A stretch of 64,000 nucleotides of DNA from Akkermansia muciniphila (GTDB lineage Bacteria > Verrucomicrobiota > Verrucomicrobiia > Verrucomicrobiales > Akkermansiaceae), in contig CAMDCV010000018.1 of the NCBI GenBank assembly GCA_945890645.1, forward strand, positions 1 through 64,000, given 5' to 3'. Below are positions 33,838 to 41,272 of this stretch, piece after piece. A program made the position numbers and the translations under genes. A model generated the notes under the pieces. That model was not told the DNA's origin, ran no database searches, and was given only the letters and a program-made list of their open reading frames with translations. Position 1 is the first letter of the stretch; each line of letters starts with the position of its first letter.

Positions 33838-33921
33838 ATGGTACTTCCGATCATCAACATTCTCTTAGGCGCTGGAGCACTGGCCATCGCCATCATGACG
33901 TGGATCACTCCCATCGTCTGA
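33838..33921 (+). CDS. 27-residue hydrophobic microprotein
   Basis: The ATG at 33838 opens 27 codons to the TGA at 33919-33921: MVLPIINILLGAGALA then IAIMTWITPIV. The whole chain is one membrane helix with small residues (GAGALA) that favour helix packing. It lies 46 bases after the proline-rich anchored protein on the same strand. I believe it is real because the hydrophobic pattern is unbroken, the start is an ATG and its position just after a membrane protein is suggestive. Translation is unproven. It may be a subunit or regulator of the upstream protein's membrane anchor. Confidence 0.5.
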   Translation: MVLPIINILLGAGALAIAIMTWITPIV

Positions 33922-33944
33922 GTAACACAGCAGGAAAATCAAAA

Positions 33945-34035
33945 TCCCCACTCAACCGAAGGCCTTGGACTGCGGTGAGAATTACCGCTTTTGGGTTCGC
34001 TGGTAGAGTTACGGAGTCGTATTTGAATCCGTCTT
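33945..34035. repeat. Possible copy of an intergenic repeat (CCTTGGACTGCGGTG type)
   Basis: The stretch contains CCTTGGACTGCGGTG then ACCGCTTTTGGG, a short inverted pair (GCGGTG/ACCGC) about seven bases apart. From memory this resembles a dispersed verrucomicrobial intergenic element. There is only one copy here, so this is weakly supported. No gene lies in 33922-34202. Confidence 0.3.
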
Positions 34036-34114
34036 TTTAAGGTAAATCAATTTGATTAAATCGAGTATAATGGCTCGTTTCCAAGTAATGAGCCCATTGT
34101 TGATTGCAGAAAAT

Positions 34115-34183
34115 CTAGCACATCTACGGCAGAAAAGGAAGCCCGAATTTAACTGGGAGCGCTCCCCGTCACCGCGAAAGCTG
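34115..34183 (-). repeat. attC-like junction element J1
   Basis: Read on the minus strand it ends in TTCGGGCTTCC then TGCCGTAGATGTGCTAG. It aligns with J2 (34660-34722) and J5 (37310-37379), which share the AATTCG and GCCGTGGATG parts. It follows the stop of the gene at 34203 by about 20 bases. The central GGGAGCGCTCCC palindrome (34157-34168) may form a stem. Confidence 0.45.
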
Positions 34184-34202
34184 TCTATGTTCTGAGATGG
34201 AA

Positions 34203-34640
34203 TTACGCATCCGTATTCTCCCAGAACTTCCCATCAACCTCAAGTTGCACTTTTTTCGCAGTTGGGTGATAAAGCAACACTGTGCCTGTTAGGGCTTTCA
34301 TTACTGTAGCATCGTAACTGGCCGATCCGCTGAAATACGGCATGGCTTCCTTCACGAACGATACAATGACAACATTTGCCTCCACACGCACTCCACGGTA
34401 GTAGTAAATTAAATCCTTGTGGTCTTTTCGTCCTCCCACAAATTCCTGCTCGGCACTTTTATCTGCGGCCTGGTCAGCAAGAGTGAACAACGCAGGCAAT
34501 ATCGATTCTAAGCTTCTGAAGGTACCTGGAATAGTGGTTTCTATTGCGGCTCCCGCTCGTGTCAGAATGACTCGGCTATCGCCTTTGGCGTGCGAGCTCA
34601 GCAACAATACGATGGAAAAAAGCTTGATAAATGTTTTCAT
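34203..34640 (-). CDS. Secreted hypothetical protein, 145 aa
   Basis: Unknown family. A signal peptide (MKTFIKLFSIVLLLSSHAKG) starts at the ATG of 34640; the mature part is about 125 residues of mixed polar sequence. It has DHKDLIYYYRGVRVEAN and a late GTVLLYHPTAKKVQLEVDGKFWEN, with no Cys pair or catalytic motif. It lies in the minus-strand array of small genes and is followed by the attC-like element J1, with J2 before it. That is the layout expected of an integron gene cassette. Confidence 0.6.
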   Translation of the reverse strand: MKTFIKLFSIVLLLSSHAKGDSRVILTRAGAAIETTIPGTFRSLESILPALFTLADQAADKSAEQEFVGGRKDHKDLIYYYRGVRVEANVVIVSFVKEAMPYFSGSASYDATVMKALTGTVLLYHPTAKKVQLEVDGKFWENTDA

Positions 34641-34659
34641 GGTTTAGTTTAGCAAACTA

Positions 34660-34722
34660 CTAGTTCATCCACGGCGAAATGAAAGCTCGAATTCAAACAA
34701 GACTATTACCGCTGTTTGTTGG
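34660..34722 (-). repeat. attC-like junction element J2
   Basis: On the minus strand the element runs AGCGGTAATAGTC, GAATTCGAGCTTTC, and CGCCGTGGATGAACTAG. The stop codon of the upstream gene (TAA at 34708-34706) lies inside it, as is typical for cassette attC sites. It shares CGCCGTGGATG with J5. It ends about 20 bases before the ATG of the next gene (34640). Confidence 0.5.
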
Positions 34723-35053
34723 CGCGTCTATTTGCGGTCGACATCCAGAAGACAAAGGTTACCCCGGCACTGAGCATGGAATAGAAAAAGGCATTCCATC
34801 CCATTACGGCACTCGTGTGATGCAAAACTTCACCAAGCTGGAAGTCGGATTCCCATCTGTTATCTGCAATTAGCATTCCGGGAAGTGCTCCCACTGCAAG
34901 GAACTCGAATTGGTAGGAAGAGTATTCAGCCCCATATCGAGCGACATTCCATCCTTCTATTTTTAGTCCTGCGAAGGCTGTAATAATTCCTGCGAGCGCG
35001 CCGATACAAGAAGCCTTGAGCAAAGTCACTGTTCGAAGTGTGCCACATTTCAT
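34706..35053 (-). CDS. Small membrane protein, 115 aa
   Basis: Not recognised. I use the ATG at 35053 (MKCGTLRTVTLLKASCIG); a TTG at 35068 would add five residues. Two or three hydrophobic segments are visible: GALAGIITAFAG near residue 20, FEFLAVGALPGMLI near 50, and NAFFYSMLSAGVTFVFWM near 90. The Arg/Asn-rich tail (ANRRANKQR) reaches into the attC-like element J2. It belongs to the array of small minus-strand genes. No function is assigned. Confidence 0.5.
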   Translation of the reverse strand: MKCGTLRTVTLLKASCIGALAGIITAFAGLKIEGWNVARYGAEYSSYQFEFLAVGALPGMLIADNRWESDFQLGEVLHHTSAVMGWNAFFYSMLSAGVTFVFWMSTANRRANKQR

Positions 35054-35060
35054 ATGATTG

Positions 35061-35115
35061 GAGATCAACGTTAAGTCTTCCTATGCTCGTGCTCTTGGTT
35101 GAAACGAGACGATCA
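35061..35115 (-). repeat. attC-like junction element J3 (diverged)
   Basis: The element covers the gap between the genes at 35119 and 35053. On the minus strand it reads CGTCTCGTTTCAACC ... GACTTAACGTTGATC. GAAACGAGAC (plus strand) matches CAAACAAGAC of J2, and a GTTGATC-like core resembles GTTRRRY with one mismatch. It is the weakest of the five. Confidence 0.3.
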
Positions 35116-35118
35116 AAG

Positions 35119-35349
35119 TCACTTCTTCTTGAAGATCTTCTGAGGAATTCCACTATCCATGACAATACCGATGAGCGTGATTACTGCAAAGATGACCGCG
35201 CATGACACGAGAGCAAATTGGCCGAAGGCCGGGAGTCGCTCCAACCACGACTCAGGAATGAAAGCCCAAGCGACGATTCCGCCCACGATAAAGACGGCGA
35301 TCAATATCCAAAGAATAATTTTTGCCATTTTTTGGGGGAGATTTTTCAT
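35119..35349 (-). CDS. Small two-helix membrane protein, 76 aa
   Basis: Unknown. The ATG at 35349 opens MKNLPQKMAKIILWILIAVF with two hydrophobic helices (IILWILIAVFIVGGIVAWAF near residue 10-30 and FALVSCAVIFAVITLIGIVM near 45-65) and a basic C-terminus (QKIFKKK). The start is 17 bases after the stop of the 189-residue gene on the same strand, with no junction element between. The two may therefore be one cassette and act together. Confidence 0.55.
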   Translation of the reverse strand: MKNLPQKMAKIILWILIAVFIVGGIVAWAFIPESWLERLPAFGQFALVSCAVIFAVITLIGIVMDSGIPQKIFKKK

Positions 35350-35366
35350 GTGCCTGTGGTGTCCTG

Positions 35367-35936
35367 CTAATTGCTAACGGGGGGCAACTTTTGATTCGGG
35401 TTGAGGTTTCTGTCTATCTTCCCTTCTGTTGCCGTAAGCAACGGGTCTCGAAAGTATGCAAGGCGAAGGCGTGAGAGCCTCCAACAATAGATGCCACCCC
35501 ATATCCCAGAGTAAACGAGAAGTGCAAACCAATGGGCTACATAACAATAGGATGTCCTACCGTCTGAATCGATTTTATGAAAGGCGTTGATGGGGGATTG
35601 GAATGGATTAGGGTTATTTTCCCTGAGATTCTCCCATCCACCTTCGCTCAGCAAGGATGACTGAATGCTGAATCCACGGTTTGGGAGCTTCGTGTTCTTT
35701 CTTTTGGCGTAGTCGATGCTCTCGTGAGACACACCCATTATGCCTACCCTGGAGTGTAATGAATAATACCTGACGATGGCTGTACCGGGATCCACACGAT
35801 CAGGGGTGTGGAGGACGCGGGCGTATTCGAAGGAGTCCCACCATGACCAGTTGATGAAAAGAAAGCCTGGTGCACCAAGCCAAAATATAAGGCTGCGATA
35901 CCAAGGGCGTATCAGATGCTGTTCCTTCTTCTCCAT
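35367..35936 (-). CDS. Hypothetical membrane-associated protein, 189 aa
   Basis: Not recognised by name, though small proteins of this type occur scattered in verrucomicrobial genomes. I start at the ATG of 35936 (MEKKEQHLIRPWYRSL), since the ATG at 35981 would add residues overlapping the junction element. A hydrophobic stretch (SLIFWLGAPGFLFINWSWW) follows near residue 15. A second hydrophobic region (AHWFALLVYSGIWGGIYCW) lies near 150. The central region is soluble (VRYYSLHSRVGIMGVSHES). It lies between J4 and the 76-residue membrane gene, and might be a cassette with its neighbour. Confidence 0.55.
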   Translation of the reverse strand: MEKKEQHLIRPWYRSLIFWLGAPGFLFINWSWWDSFEYARVLHTPDRVDPGTAIVRYYSLHSRVGIMGVSHESIDYAKRKNTKLPNRGFSIQSSLLSEGGWENLRENNPNPFQSPINAFHKIDSDGRTSYCYVAHWFALLVYSGIWGGIYCWRLSRLRLAYFRDPLLTATEGKIDRNLNPNQKLPPVSN

Positions 35937-35949
35937 GCTGTTTATTGCA

Positions 35950-35990
35950 TAACGATAGAGTGAAGGCGCCGACGAGATCAAGCTCAGATT
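35950..35990 (-). repeat. attC-like junction element J4 (diverged)
   Basis: It begins right after the stop of the oxidoreductase gene (35991). On the minus strand it reads AATCTGAGCTTGATC, TCGGCGCC and GTTATGC. The GAGCTT and GGCG portions align with J2. The GTTATGC core fits GTTRRRY with one mismatch. Confidence 0.35.
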
Positions 35991-36989
35991 CTACGATGCT
36001 TTATCGCCGTTACTACTCGCAACGGTAATGACGACTTTGCCCCGTTGATGTCCTTCGCTGACATACCGAAGTGCCTCGCGAGCATCGCTGAACGGATAGC
36101 ACCGATCGATGGCGGGCACGATCCGGCGCTCCGCGCAGAGTTCGGTAATCGCGAGTAGCAAGCTTCGATCCTGAGGAACGGCAAGAACACGGACGCTCTT
36201 GCCCGTTACCAGCCGTATCAAGGGACCTAACACAAGTGTGCTGAGCAGCACCGGAACCGGGCCTCCGACGATGAAGTAAGTGCCATTCGGTCGTAGCGCC
36301 CGCGCGCAGGCAAAGACAGACCGGTGGGCAATCGTATCGAGGATCAGATCAAACTGCCCTCCGCTCTTCGTGTAATCCTCTGTCCTGTAATCGATGACAT
36401 GATCGGCGCCGAGCGAATGCAGGAAGTCTGCCTTATCGCCGTGATCCACACCGGTGACTTCTGCACCAGACAGCTTGGCGAGTAGCACCGCAAAACTGCC
36501 TGCCGCGCCGCCGGCTCCATTGATCAGGACCTTGTCCCCAGCCCGTACCTGCCCTTTCAACCGAATCGCCTGTAAGGCAATCGTTCCGGCCTGCGGAATG
36601 GCCGCTGCCTCTTCGAAAGTTAAGCCGACGGGCTTGCGGACGAGTGCCGTCTCCGGAACACACACGTATTCGGCGAAACCGCTGTGGTAACCGGGAACCT
36701 CTCCGAGAACCTCGTCGCCCGGTCGCAGATCGCGGACCTGGCTGCCGACCTGCTCCACTCGACCCGCTACGTCGGAGCCGAGGATAGGGTAGCGCGGCTT
36801 CCACAGTCCACCAATCCGAGCGTAAGCCGGTCTTCCGGACACTGCTTCTCGATCGGATCCATTGACAGAAGCGGCGACAACCCGGATCAGTACCTCGCCA
36901 GCCGACGGCACAGGCTTCGCTACCTCCTCGATCCGAACGACATCCGGAGAACCATACTCGGTGCGGACAACTGCTTTCATTGAAATCAT
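35991..36989 (-). CDS. NAD(P)H:quinone reductase-like oxidoreductase (MDR superfamily, zinc-independent)
   Basis: A medium-chain dehydrogenase/reductase of 332 residues. The start GroES-like part has MKAVVRTEYGSPDVVRIEEV and GSDVAGRVEQVGSQV. The cofactor-binding motif is GAGGAAGSFAVLLAKLSGAEVTGV near residue 150, so NADPH is probable. No Zn-binding Cys cluster is present. I choose the ATG at 36989 because it overlaps the TGA of the preceding small gene (ATGA), which implies coupled translation; the family core starts three residues later at MKAVV. It is more GC-rich, with different codon choice from its neighbours by eye, hinting at transfer. The substrate is unknown. Confidence 0.85.
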   Translation of the reverse strand: MISMKAVVRTEYGSPDVVRIEEVAKPVPSAGEVLIRVVAASVNGSDREAVSGRPAYARIGGLWKPRYPILGSDVAGRVEQVGSQVRDLRPGDEVLGEVPGYHSGFAEYVCVPETALVRKPVGLTFEEAAAIPQAGTIALQAIRLKGQVRAGDKVLINGAGGAAGSFAVLLAKLSGAEVTGVDHGDKADFLHSLGADHVIDYRTEDYTKSGGQFDLILDTIAHRSVFACARALRPNGTYFIVGGPVPVLLSTLVLGPLIRLVTGKSVRVLAVPQDRSLLLAITELCAERRIVPAIDRCYPFSDAREALRYVSEGHQRGKVVITVASSNGDKAS

Positions 36990-37297
36990 CGCCATTTCGC
37001 AGGTAGTGCGTAACCCTTGGTTGTGCAGAACGCAACGCAAATTGGCTTCCAGAGCCGGAACGTCCACCCGTCTGGACTGTAATCTGCCCCTCCAGGGATG
37101 TCGATGTCTCTAGCCGCAAACGGAACCCACCATCTTGGGCGGGGGCCGATAGCAACACTTCGTCCCGCATGATTGTCCTCGTCATAAGGCACCGCGACGC
37201 TGGTAAAATCAAAGATCGCCAGCGGCAATAGGAGATAGGCCCCAAGTGCGTGGCCGAGAAGCTTTAGCCACTTAATTCGGCGCGTGCGTGTCTTCAT
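36986..37297 (-). CDS. Small membrane protein, 103 aa
   Basis: Not recognised. The basic N-terminus (MKTRTRRIKWLKLLGH) is followed by one hydrophobic helix (ALGAYLLLPLAIFDF). The remainder is soluble with Trp-rich segments (RPRWWVPFA, DGWTFRLW). The stop codon TGA at 36986-36988 overlaps the ATG of the oxidoreductase in the form ATGA, so the two are probably co-expressed and share a job. It sits just downstream of J5. Confidence 0.5.
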   Translation of the reverse strand: MKTRTRRIKWLKLLGHALGAYLLLPLAIFDFTSVAVPYDEDNHAGRSVAIGPRPRWWVPFAARDIDIPGGADYSPDGWTFRLWKPICVAFCTTKGYALPAKWR

Positions 37298-37309
37298 TTT
37301 TGGCAGAAC

Positions 37310-37379
37310 CTATAGGCCATCCACGGCGGGGAGGAAAGCACAAATTCAAATTGAGACATTACCCGCCGTTAGATGAGCC
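37310..37379 (-). repeat. attC-like junction element J5 (best match)
   Basis: On the minus strand ATCTAAC (37374-37368) matches the RYYYAAC core. GGCGGG and CCCGCC (37362-37367 and 37325-37330) form a six-base stem, and the end is CGCCGTGGATG. On the plus strand the opposite end has the perfect GTTAGAT core (37368-37374). The middle AATTTGAATTTGTGC is shared in part with J1 and J2. No gene ends into it; 37380-37785 has no CDS. Confidence 0.5.
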
Positions 37380-37455
37380 GGTCTATTGTTGGGCTAGTGT
37401 TAATACGTTTATCCTCCATGCGGTTCTGGTTCTGATGCCGTTGTCTCAGACTTTT

Positions 37456-37485
37456 CCATCATTCCTCTGTCCATCATTCCGCTGT
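37456..37485 (+). repeat. 15-base tandem repeat
   Basis: Two adjacent units, CCATCATTCCTCTGT (37456-37470) and CCATCATTCCGCTGT (37471-37485), differ at one base. The TTTTCCATCATTCC part recurs inverted near 48245-48258. It lies in the gene-free stretch between the small-gene array and the phosphoesterase. Confidence 0.55.
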
Positions 37486-37530
37486 CTAAAAAATTCAAGA
37501 GTCAATCAAATCAAAAATCCCTACTCAAAA

Positions 37531-37645
37531 ACCCCAATCGGGGTGAACGATGACAGCCTAGGGTAAGCGAGAAAATCGAGCGCAGCCCTAGGGACAAAAC
37601 CCACACACCCACCCCTACGCCGCCCCGCTTGCGGGGCATGGCGCT
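37531..37645 (+). repeat. Compound palindromic repeat, copy A
   Basis: Three hairpins in series: ACCCC/GGGGT at 37531-37544; CCTAGGG ... CCCTAGG around 37557-37592; and CCCCGC/GCGGGG at 37623-37636 before CATGGCGCT. The second and third are shared, in reverse orientation, with copy B at 38666-38750. With copy B it flanks the metallophosphoesterase gene. Confidence 0.65.
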
Positions 37646-37785
37646 CCACCCGAGCCGATCAACAATTCTCTAAAACAAAGCGATTTTGTGAAATGAATAG
37701 TCTAACAGAAAATTAAAAGGCTCATCTCCTAGGACTCCATTTTACGCTCGCACGTCGCCACTCACTGACTTCTCATCTAGTCTTG

Positions 37786-38490
37786 TTAGCTTCTAATTCG
37801 TGGAAGCAGGCCCGAATTCATAATCTTACGCTGTGTTAACCCGATATCGTAGTCCACTCTCTTGATTCGCACCACGGCGTTGTCGACGTCGTAGATTGCG
37901 TAGCATGCGCGAGGGTCTCCATCTCTTGGTTGTCCAACGCTGCCGACGTTTATTAAATATTGCGTGTGCTCTTTTAGGTCGATCCGGTCTCCAGACTCAA
38001 TAACCACAGAGTCGTTCTTCAAGTAGAACTTTGGTATGTGTGTATGTCCGAAGAAGCAAAGATGTGCGGCCTGGTATGAGAAACTCGACATCGCATCGAA
38101 TTTGCTCACGACATAATACCAGTGCGAAGGAGAATCGAGAGATGAGTGGACTATAGTGAACCCTCTGCACTTCAATACGAGATCGAGTTCCCGAAGCCAT
38201 TTTTTGTCGGCATCACTTAGTTGATCGCGTGTCCAAGAGGTTGCATGCTTAGCAACTGGATTCAATCCATCAAGGCTAGAGTCGTCAGAAGCGCTCTCGT
38301 CGAAATCTCCTTTCACGGTTGGGCAATCTAGGCTCCTGATCCTCTCAATACATTCACGCGGACTGGGGCCGTATCCTACAATGTCGCCGATACAGGCGTA
38401 GCCGCCGCATCCTTCCCGCTCGGCATCAGCCAAGACCGCCTCAAGCGCTTCTTGGTTTGCGTGAATGTCTCCTAGAATCGCAATGCGCAT
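37786..38490 (-). CDS. Metallophosphoesterase (YfcE/calcineurin-like)
   Basis: A two-metal phosphoesterase of 234 residues. Motifs are in order: MRIAILGDIHANQEALEAVL (Asp/His), CIGDIVGYGPSP (GDxxxYG), HSSLDSPS, then FGHTHIPKFY (GHTH), which supply the metal ligands. The family acts on phosphodiesters or nucleotides; the true substrate is unknown. It stands alone on the minus strand between two inverted palindromic repeats, in a region where the sequence to either side shows no other gene. Confidence 0.9.
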   Translation of the reverse strand: MRIAILGDIHANQEALEAVLADAEREGCGGYACIGDIVGYGPSPRECIERIRSLDCPTVKGDFDESASDDSSLDGLNPVAKHATSWTRDQLSDADKKWLRELDLVLKCRGFTIVHSSLDSPSHWYYVVSKFDAMSSFSYQAAHLCFFGHTHIPKFYLKNDSVVIESGDRIDLKEHTQYLINVGSVGQPRDGDPRACYAIYDVDNAVVRIKRVDYDIGLTQRKIMNSGLLPRIRS

Positions 38491-38665
38491 TTTTCTTCAG
38501 CGAACAGTTATTTAGTTAAGTCGCGGACGATATCGACTACGCGAATAATCTCAAGGTTGAATTTTGCCTCGGAAGCCGATGGATTGCGCATGTTATTGGG
38601 ATTTCTGTATTTTTTGGAACTTGAAATACCATCCACTAAGTTGTCTTTGTCCATTCAAATATGAT

Positions 38666-38750
38666 AGCGCCATGCCCCGCTGCGCGGGGCGGCGGGATTG
38701 TTTTTTGGGGGTATTGATCCCAGGGTAGCGTCGATGCGCCGCAACCCTGG
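38666..38750 (-). repeat. Compound palindromic repeat, copy B (inverted)
   Basis: Begins AGCGCCATGCCCCGC (the reverse complement of the end of copy A) and contains the CCCAGGGTAGCG ... CGCAACCCTGG hairpin at 38719-38750. A further GGCAACGGCGTTGCC palindrome lies just after (38760-38774). The gap 38491-38965 contains this element and no gene. Confidence 0.65.
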
Positions 38751-38938
38751 ACTTTAATAGGCAACGGCGTTGCCGTAGTGGGAAAAAAGACGGATTACCG
38801 CATCCTGTATTTTCTGCGGGATTTTTTTGAACATCAAATTCTCACGGGATTATGATGAGGTGGTTTGCATTCTGATCATTTGTCTTTCCCTATGTGAAAA
38901 TGATAGAAAAAAGGAGCTCTGGGATGATACTAGCATTA

Positions 38939-38957
38939 AGCCGCCGAGACGGCGGCT
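38939..38957 (-). terminator. Hairpin after tex
   Basis: AGCCGCC/GGCGGCT around GAGAC form a perfect seven-base stem nine bases past the tex stop (38966). There is no T tract on the minus-strand side, so it may be a stabiliser rather than a terminator. Confidence 0.4.
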
Positions 38958-38965
38958 CTCCCTGA

Positions 38966-41272
38966 TTACCGCTTTTTTCCTTGTTGCACTGCTTGGCTGA
39001 ACCAGTCGTTGCCGGGGGCGGGGGTGGCGGGGCGGTTGTCGCGGCGGGGGGCGGGGCTGTTGCCGCGGTCGTTGCCGCCGGCGCGGCGTTCGGTGTCGGG
39101 CTTGCTTTTCATGCTGAGGGCGATGCGCTTGCGCTCGAGATCGACTTCGGTGACGGTGACTTGGACTTTTTGGCCTACCTTGACGACTTCACTCGCATCG
39201 CGGACGAATTGATCGCTGAGCTGGCTGACGTGGACGAGGCCGTCTTGGTGGACGCCGACATCGACAAAGGCCCCGAATGCGGTTACGTTGGTGACGATGC
39301 CGGGAAGCTTCATGCCGACCTTGAGATCGCTCGGTTTCTCGACACCTTCGGCAAAGGAAAATAGCTCGAACTGCTTGCGCGGGTCGCGGCCTGGTTTGGC
39401 GAGCTCGGCGATGATGTCTTTCAGTGTCGGCAGGCCAACATCAGCGGTGACGTATGTTTCTGCTTTGATTTTTTGGCGCAGCTCGGGCTTGGTGAGGAGC
39501 TCGTGCAGGGTGCAGCCGAGATCGGCGGCCATTTGTTCGACGAGGGCGTAGCGCTCGGGATGGACGGCGGAGGAATCGAGCGGATGCGGGCTGGCGGCGA
39601 AGCGGAGGAATCCGGCGGCTTGCTCGAAGGCTTTGTCGCCAAGGCGCGGTACTTGTTTCAATGCCTCGCGCGAAGGGAAGGGGCCGTTCGCAGCACGGTG
39701 GGCGACGATGTTTTCGGCGAGTGATCGATTGAGTCCAGAAACGTATTGCAGCAGTTCTTTCGAGGCGGTGTTGAGCTCGACACCGACGGCATTTACAGCG
39801 CTGACGACAGTGTCATCGAGCGAGGCTTTGAGCGCGCGTTGATCGACGTCGTGTTGGTATTGTCCGACGCCGATGGCTTTCGGATCGATCTTCACTAACT
39901 CGGCGAGCGGGTCCATGAGGCGGCGTCCGATGCTAATCGCACCGCGAACTGTGAGATCGAGATCAGGAAATTCTTCGCGCGCCACATCCGAGGCCGAGTA
40001 CACCGAAGCGCCCGCTTCATTGACCACCACGACGGGAATAGAGGAGGGGAGATTTAGCTTGCGGCAGAAACTTTCTGACTCGCGTGAACCAGTGCCGTTG
40101 CCGATGGCGATGGCTTCGATCTTGTGCTTGGAAATGATCGTGAGCAACTCCTTGGCGGCTTCGTATTGTTGCGTGTTCGAGCCGGCGGTGATGTGGAGGA
40201 CGGTGTGATGGAGCAGCGTGCCGGTGGCATCGAGCGCGACCGTTTTGCAACCGGTGCGAAAGCCGGGGTCGATGGCGAGGATGCGTTTCTGGCCGAGTGG
40301 CGAGGCTAACAACAATTCGCGCAGGTTATCGGCAAAGACCTGGATCGCGGTGGCATCGGCGATTTTTTTCGAGTTGAGGCGCATTTCTGTTTCCATCGAG
40401 GGCATCAGCAAACGCTTGCAGCCGTCCTCGACTGCTTCGCGCACTTGTTGGCCAGCGGCGGCTTGGCTGCTGACAAATTGCGGCACGGCAGTTCCGCAAA
40501 CGCGCTCGTGCGGGACATCGACACGCATCAGCAGGAAGCCATCTTTTTCGCCGCGTCGGATGGCGAGAAGTCGGTGCGAGGGGATGGAGCGTAGTGGCTC
40601 GGTCCAGTCGAAGTAATCGCGGAATTTTGCGGCATCGGTTTCTTCCTCTTTGCCATACATAATCTTCGAGGAAACGATGGCTTCTGTTTCGTAAAGATTG
40701 CGGACGGCACCGCGCAGCGCGGCGTCATCGGCGACGATCTCGGCAATAATATCGCGCGCCCCAGCGAGGGCCTCGGCGGTGGTGGTGACTTCTTTCTCGG
40801 CATCGATGAATTTTGTCGCTTCAGTTTCGATGTCGTGGCTGCTTTGATTTTCTAACAGAAACGTCGCGAGTGGTTCGAGACCGCGCTCCTTCGCCTTGGT
40901 GGCGCGGGTCTGGCGTTTCGGGCGGAAAGGTGCGAAAGCATCTTCCAATGCGGTCATCGTCAGGCAGGCGAGGATTTTTTTATTGAGCTCGGGTGTGAGA
41001 AGACTGCGTTCCTCTAACGATTTTAAGATCGCGGTGCGGCGGGAATCGAGATCGACGAGTCGGAGCATCGAATCGCGGATGGTGGTGATTTGGACTTCAT
41101 CGAGTTCGCCGGTGGCTTCCTTGCGGTAGCGGGCGATGAATGGCACGGTCGCACCTTCGGCGATGAGTTGAGCGGTGGCGCTGACGCTGCGGACAGAGAT
41201 GCCCGTTTCCTGGGCGATGAGGGCGATGTGTTTGGCGGAATCGTGTGAAGTAGAGAGAGTGGAATCAGACAT
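38966..41272 (-). CDS. tex: Tex family RNA-binding transcription accessory protein
   Basis: An S1-domain protein linked to transcription and stress, in the Tex/YhgF family. Length 768 is typical. Order from the N-terminus: HtH-like start, the YqgF nuclease-like core (ILAIDPGFRTGCKTVALDATG near residue 340), a helix-hairpin-helix region (SGLNRSLAENIVAHRAANGPF), and a C-terminal S1 domain (GIVTNVTAFGAFVDVGVHQDG). The Arg/Gly/Pro tail (RRAGGNDRGNSPAPRRDNRPA) is disordered and probably RNA-binding. It is a single-gene unit. Confidence 0.93.
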   Translation of the reverse strand: MSDSTLSTSHDSAKHIALIAQETGISVRSVSATAQLIAEGATVPFIARYRKEATGELDEVQITTIRDSMLRLVDLDSRRTAILKSLEERSLLTPELNKKILACLTMTALEDAFAPFRPKRQTRATKAKERGLEPLATFLLENQSSHDIETEATKFIDAEKEVTTTAEALAGARDIIAEIVADDAALRGAVRNLYETEAIVSSKIMYGKEEETDAAKFRDYFDWTEPLRSIPSHRLLAIRRGEKDGFLLMRVDVPHERVCGTAVPQFVSSQAAAGQQVREAVEDGCKRLLMPSMETEMRLNSKKIADATAIQVFADNLRELLLASPLGQKRILAIDPGFRTGCKTVALDATGTLLHHTVLHITAGSNTQQYEAAKELLTIISKHKIEAIAIGNGTGSRESESFCRKLNLPSSIPVVVVNEAGASVYSASDVAREEFPDLDLTVRGAISIGRRLMDPLAELVKIDPKAIGVGQYQHDVDQRALKASLDDTVVSAVNAVGVELNTASKELLQYVSGLNRSLAENIVAHRAANGPFPSREALKQVPRLGDKAFEQAAGFLRFAASPHPLDSSAVHPERYALVEQMAADLGCTLHELLTKPELRQKIKAETYVTADVGLPTLKDIIAELAKPGRDPRKQFELFSFAEGVEKPSDLKVGMKLPGIVTNVTAFGAFVDVGVHQDGLVHVSQLSDQFVRDASEVVKVGQKVQVTVTEVDLERKRIALSMKSKPDTERRAGGNDRGNSPAPRRDNRPATPAPGNDWFSQAVQQGKKR

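Follow-up and report, generated by a model that had tools for sequence, protein, structure and literature searches.

A probable integron cassette cluster without an integrase in an Akkermansia muciniphila assembly

Introduction

Can a row of small genes separated by related elements be recognized as integron cassettes when no integron integrase gene accompanies it? We asked this of a 64,000-nucleotide stretch of the Akkermansia muciniphila contig CAMDCV010000018.1 (hereafter the window), in which an initial annotation had noted five related elements in one orientation (J1 to J5) and proposed a cassette array without integrase. According to the mechanism that we consider, each cassette would comprise a gene and, behind it, an attC site whose bottom strand would fold into a hairpin; IntI would recombine this hairpin at the G|TT of the right core, with excision of the cassette as a circle or its insertion as the outcome. 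It is established that mobile cassettes take the form of circles closed through attC (PMC3053210). The Verrucomicrobiota have been listed as integron-bearing (PMC8618304) and integrons have been assigned to Akkermansiaceae MAGs (PMC9051133); the phylum is not among the 11 taxon attC models (PMC8352920).

Results

The motif shared by the elements, AATTCG.GCTTTC...GCCGTGGATG, turned out to be real and not a chance likeness, as the annotation had it. The strict pattern has just two exact copies genome-wide, and the relaxed pattern GAATTNGNGCTTTCNNNNNCGCCGTGGATG, with up to three mismatches, has 8 matches on five contigs of the whole genome against 0 with the reversed control. From the flanks of these copies we read the full element as AACAAG..GCTCATCC-A-ACGGCGGG - about 31 nt - CCCGCCGT-GGATGAGC..GTTC. 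The annotation had caught only the inner part of it, the true cores AAC and GTT lying about 10-15 nt further out. What it had called the RYYYAAC core of J5 (ATCTAAC) and the right cores (GTGGATG) are parts of the inner stem, and the outer AAC and GTT, rather than these, are the candidate recombination cores.

A home-made hairpin detector was dropped, as it had many matches in shuffled and reversed sequence too, and a covariance model was used instead. This model, R1, was built from an alignment of eight elements, with J1 and J2 left out of the training, and recognizes 17 distinct sites in this genome at E<=1e-3 (18 rows, of which one repeats a palindromic site on its other strand). A loose form of the pattern gave 48 scattered matches on viral contigs, which we judged to be chance because the pattern is short and its gap variable. 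In the window, the cassette cluster spans 34.1-38.5 kb, and R1 recognizes three sites, all on the minus strand:

37299..37393, minus strand: attC site J5, well preserved; R'' GCCCAAC at 37394-37388, R' (right core) GTTCTGC at 37309-37303
34648..34738, minus strand: attC site J2, degenerate; R' GTTTGCT at 34657-34651; E 1.4e-4
34103..34197, minus strand: attC site J1, degenerate; E 0.003 for the whole genome

J5, which is itself among the training sequences, scores E 1.1e-23; it has a 31-nt loop and the expected stem, whose inner part carries unpaired bases on the left arm, and J1 and J2 fold poorly. Model matches thus uphold three of the five elements originally proposed. Neither J3 (35061) nor J4 (35950) matched the covariance model, and we accepted neither as a site, J3 having no support and J4 being marginal. 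The latter may be described as follows:

35947..35994, minus strand: possible short or decayed attC (J4); GTAGAAT ... GTTATGC, with an ATG 10 nt later

Its GTAGAAT (35994-35988) could pair with the GTTCTGC at the start of its cassette through two G-T wobbles.

The anatomy of the family agrees in part with the attC consensus RYYYAAC/GTTRRRY. Over 86 sites the core bases are conserved at 88-91% (AAC) and 88-98% (GTT) per base, the commonest R' being GTTCGGC, with GTTAGGC also seen. Of the 87 matches that we read, 86 have a 31-nt gap; the loop, TAACG..CC..TTTGAATTCGGGCTTCC, is well conserved. In the outward continuation of the inner stem, where covariation was judged on 86 sites, two adjacent pairs show compensatory switches (T-A/C-G and C-G/G-C) and are 88-90% Watson-Crick. 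On the left arm only, a single variable base has no partner, and of two neighbouring As one is likewise unpaired; the two unpaired bases lie 5 or 6 nt apart on the R''-L'' arm, where unpaired bases are a described attC trait (PMC2727003; PMC3053210). We also observed a second, longer attC-like class of about 130 nt, which has the same AACAAGCC ends and a shared central sequence of its own:

L067:147-279, L068:3469-3601, L151:10943-11074, L150:3614-3742 and L288:4965-5097: copies of the class of about 130 nt

Sites at E<=1e-3 occur in all nine congeners and in 25 of the 57 genomes searched (own genome included), the most in one genome being 53, and conservation of the 31-nt loop extends over several of the order's families. 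The exact core pattern was found in 98 stretches in species genomes; among the 80 of these that were listed, the titles are nearly all Verrucomicrobia, Akkermansiaceae, Verrucomicrobiaceae, Luteolibacter or Prosthecobacter. Exact sites were also seen in records titled Sulfurovum, Blastochloris and Opitutales (L156, L222, L187), which may reflect mis-binning or cassette transfer.

As the annotation had stated, the window is without an integron integrase gene, and the same holds for the rest of the assembly, which is rated 97.55% complete: no IntI match (TIGR02249) over the cut-off, nor any fragment above it, was found in either. The top TIGR02249 matches in this assembly are two recombinases of XerC/XerD type. 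IntI above the cut-off is present in the congeners G003, G004, G008 and G009 (G003 and G008 individually confirmed). Sites lie 5' of intI and point away from it at four loci (L167, L177, L181, L235) and, weakly, at a congener locus (L139); at L176 and L252 the site is on the 3' side of intI instead. The IntI of the genus and of some related genera is about 420 aa long and begins at its N-terminus with a conserved extension of about 105 residues, which precedes the TIGR02249-matched part and the Pfam SAM-like domain (e.g., L139:11209-12480, L137, L138, L140, L144, L147) and in which a Pfam search found no named domain.

These data raise the question of whether the genome holds an intact integron, its intI and most of its array missing only through attC repeats that break the assembly, with the window cluster as an off-site or split part of a live system. 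Sites occur at six contig ends (the end of C13 and the starts of C7, C25, C49, C46 and C23, that of C46 weakly), which fits repeats breaking the assembly, and the sites on C13, C25 and C38 are near the consensus. Draft assemblies are known to inflate the counts of integrase-less arrays, or CALINs (PMC9024848). The congener contigs break near intI, which lies within ~1 kb of a contig end, so that the congeners offer no direct view of the best-preserved site type next to intI. Against an intact integron stands the absence of IntI and of its fragments from so complete an assembly. Moreover, the gene block adjacent to the intI of G009, where intI lies next to a small gene and an LptF-like gene, is intact here (C7, ~31.6 kb) without intI on a contig that is unbroken there, so intI is absent at that position, even if an unassembled piece could still carry it. 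The window array, finally, lies mid-contig and is decayed, so it would be without a neighbouring intI in any case. On balance we regard an intact integron elsewhere in the genome as a possibility that falls somewhat short of an even chance.

Between the sites, gene starts directly follow R', and stops overlap R'' or fall within the site; J2 does contain the stop codon of its upstream gene, as first noted. The cluster also includes a phosphoesterase cassette that the annotation had overlooked:

37786..38505, minus strand: missed cassette; R' GTTCGCT (38505-38499) just before the ATG of a calcineurin-like phosphoesterase gene (37786-38490)
36986..37297, minus strand: cassette gene, 103 aa, ATG just past R' of J5, without known family
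35991..37067, minus strand: cassette gene of zinc-binding dehydrogenase/quinone oxidoreductase type; ORF of 358 aa, later start likely
35367..35981, minus strand: cassette gene for an unknown membrane protein; ORF of 204 aa, ATG start at ~35936
35119..35349, minus strand: cassette gene for a 76-aa membrane protein
34706..35068, minus strand: cassette gene for a membrane protein of about 116-120 aa, stop in J2
34203..34640, minus strand: cassette gene for a 145-aa secreted-type protein

The stop TAA of the phosphoesterase gene overlaps GCTAACAAGAC, with R'' AGCTAAC-AAGAC at 37791-37780. The gene is a divergent second copy, 54% identical to the other copy in the same genome, and has relatives in 56 of the 57 genomes searched. 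The 145-aa protein has no relative in any of the nine congeners and a single match, of 42%, in another genus. Apart from the zinc-binding dehydrogenase, the remaining cargo consists of small proteins without known families, and a defence-gene scan found no defence families among the cassette products. The gene-free stretches that flank the phosphoesterase cassette hold a G+C-rich hairpin (GCGGGGCATGGCGC) twice, in opposite orientations (window ~37615-37650 and ~38655-38690). An Rfam search at gathering and relaxed thresholds gave nothing relevant; a weak match to Acido-Lenti-1 RNA was seen at 37530-37592 on the minus strand (22 bits vs a gathering score of 37).

The minus-strand ORFs of the array are placed between the PheT operon (plus strand) and the Tex gene (minus strand). 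In the five congeners that we read, conservation reaches ~33.9 kb on the PheT side and resumes at 38.97 kb on the Tex side, the two sides lying on different contigs, and no sites were found near PheT or Tex. The array (window 33914-38966) thus marks a synteny breakpoint, the place at which two chromosome segments adjoin in this species. G004 has a GAPDH-like gene ~10 kb from Tex, and the relative of this gene here adjoins the C7 array, which hints that the arrays took part in rearrangement (loci L067:3156-4214 and L275:250-1377).

Do the cassettes bear a mark of their exchange? Under exchange of cassettes by IntI at G|TT, the bases that follow GTT would come from the next cassette, and the R'' that closes a cassette is then expected to match the start of that same cassette. 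For 19 cassettes from relatives, the own-end match averaged 3.0 of 4 pairs, which none of 2000 shuffles reached (shuffle mean 1.89, sd 0.23), and the match across one junction was 1.90, equal to chance. In 34 model-based cassettes, a set that overlaps the former and includes cassettes of this genome, the own-end match was 2.47 against 1.70 in shuffles (sd 0.16; 0 of 5000 reached it), and 1.79 across the same junction. In one cassette of this genome (L067), GTA even replaces GTT at the start, and TAC replaces AAC at the end. Judged from these base matches, the agreement of a cassette's start with its own end, and not with the other side of the junction, is the probable trace of recombination at G|TT. 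The window array itself shows this signature weakly: 3 of 4 pairs match in the phosphoesterase cassette, J5 matches J4 with the help of wobble pairs, and J2 does not match J1, which we read as decay.

The same signature bears on whether the elements are attC sites at all, since palindromic, intergenic elements that lie 3' of genes on many contigs could also be a dispersed hairpin repeat (REP-like, terminator or transposon-end) that follows genes by chance. Complementarity within a cassette, and not within a junction, is unexpected for a repeat whose copies move or evolve as a whole; in addition, the sites keep a fixed orientation beside intI, and genes begin just past the right core. We therefore consider a dispersed repeat extremely improbable, and REP or terminator repeats and chance similarity were rejected on the cassette-wise match and the zero count of the reversed control.

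Discussion

Taken together, the evidence makes it very probable that this region is a chromosomal integron cassette cluster, probably old and decaying, that forms part of a Verrucomicrobiales lineage's integron system and for which no integrase was found in the assembly. The attC architecture, the presence of the family in relatives, its adjacency to intI and the exchange signature all support the reading first proposed, and none of the findings that the annotation had named as contrary to it (no covariance-model match at any junction, no folded stem conserved between copies, other copies inside genes or in random orientation) was made. With three sites in 3.3 kb and no intI nearby, the array falls within the definition of a CALIN (two or more attC sites with no intI close by); with no intI beside it, it is not a complete integron. 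IntI of close relatives adjoins the same kind of site, which places the array in an integron system of the lineage. IntI presumably recombined these particular sites, and the array would have been left by IntI activity that is now lost or by an IntI that is unassembled. The array now looks decayed, and we infer that J1 and J2 are no longer moved efficiently.

Sites could also be recombined today without an IntI of the genome's own, for example by the host XerC/XerD or by an IntI acting in trans from outside. The genome has XerC/XerD-type recombinases, no IntI and many sites, and the site-rich relatives G037, G021 and G047 likewise gave no IntI match in the search. Nevertheless, four congeners have IntI, several relatives carry it next to sites, and its being missing from draft genomes is the simpler reason for such cases, so we find such recombination very unlikely. 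Turning back to a cassette cluster of the lineage's own integron system, one may speculate, with considerable doubt, about an order-wide Verrucomicrobiales cassette pool based on one conserved attC class, whose terminal loop would be under selection and which would possibly be read by a clade of long IntI proteins with the extension of about 105 residues, the integrase-less arrays acting as rearrangement breakpoints.

In the literature searched, which comprised papers outside subscription, this Verrucomicrobiales attC family seems undescribed. Integrase-less cassette arrays are a known kind; what is new here is modest, namely an attC class that spans the order and keeps its 31-nt loop conserved, together with the placement of an array at a synteny breakpoint. 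A family that can be searched by sequence and structure makes the cassettes of a poorly sampled phylum recognizable in metagenomes, and the match between the two ends of a cassette, as opposed to the two sides of a junction, offers a simple computational test for real cassettes where the assembly lacks an integrase.

The array resembles CALINs (IntegronFinder, PMC9024848; PMC8618304) in its attC-type sites of one orientation, in the small accessory genes between them and in the lack of a neighbouring intI, as well as in its sites, which are fewer and more degenerate than those of a complete integron. It differs from them in that its sites were found by a model built here and not by the published attC model, and in its position at a synteny breakpoint. 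With sedentary chromosomal integrons (e.g., the Vibrio VCR) it shares lineage-specific, mutually similar attC sites with a loop of their own and IntI in relatives; it departs from these in that no intI was found in the genome and in the conservation of a 31-nt terminal loop across several families.
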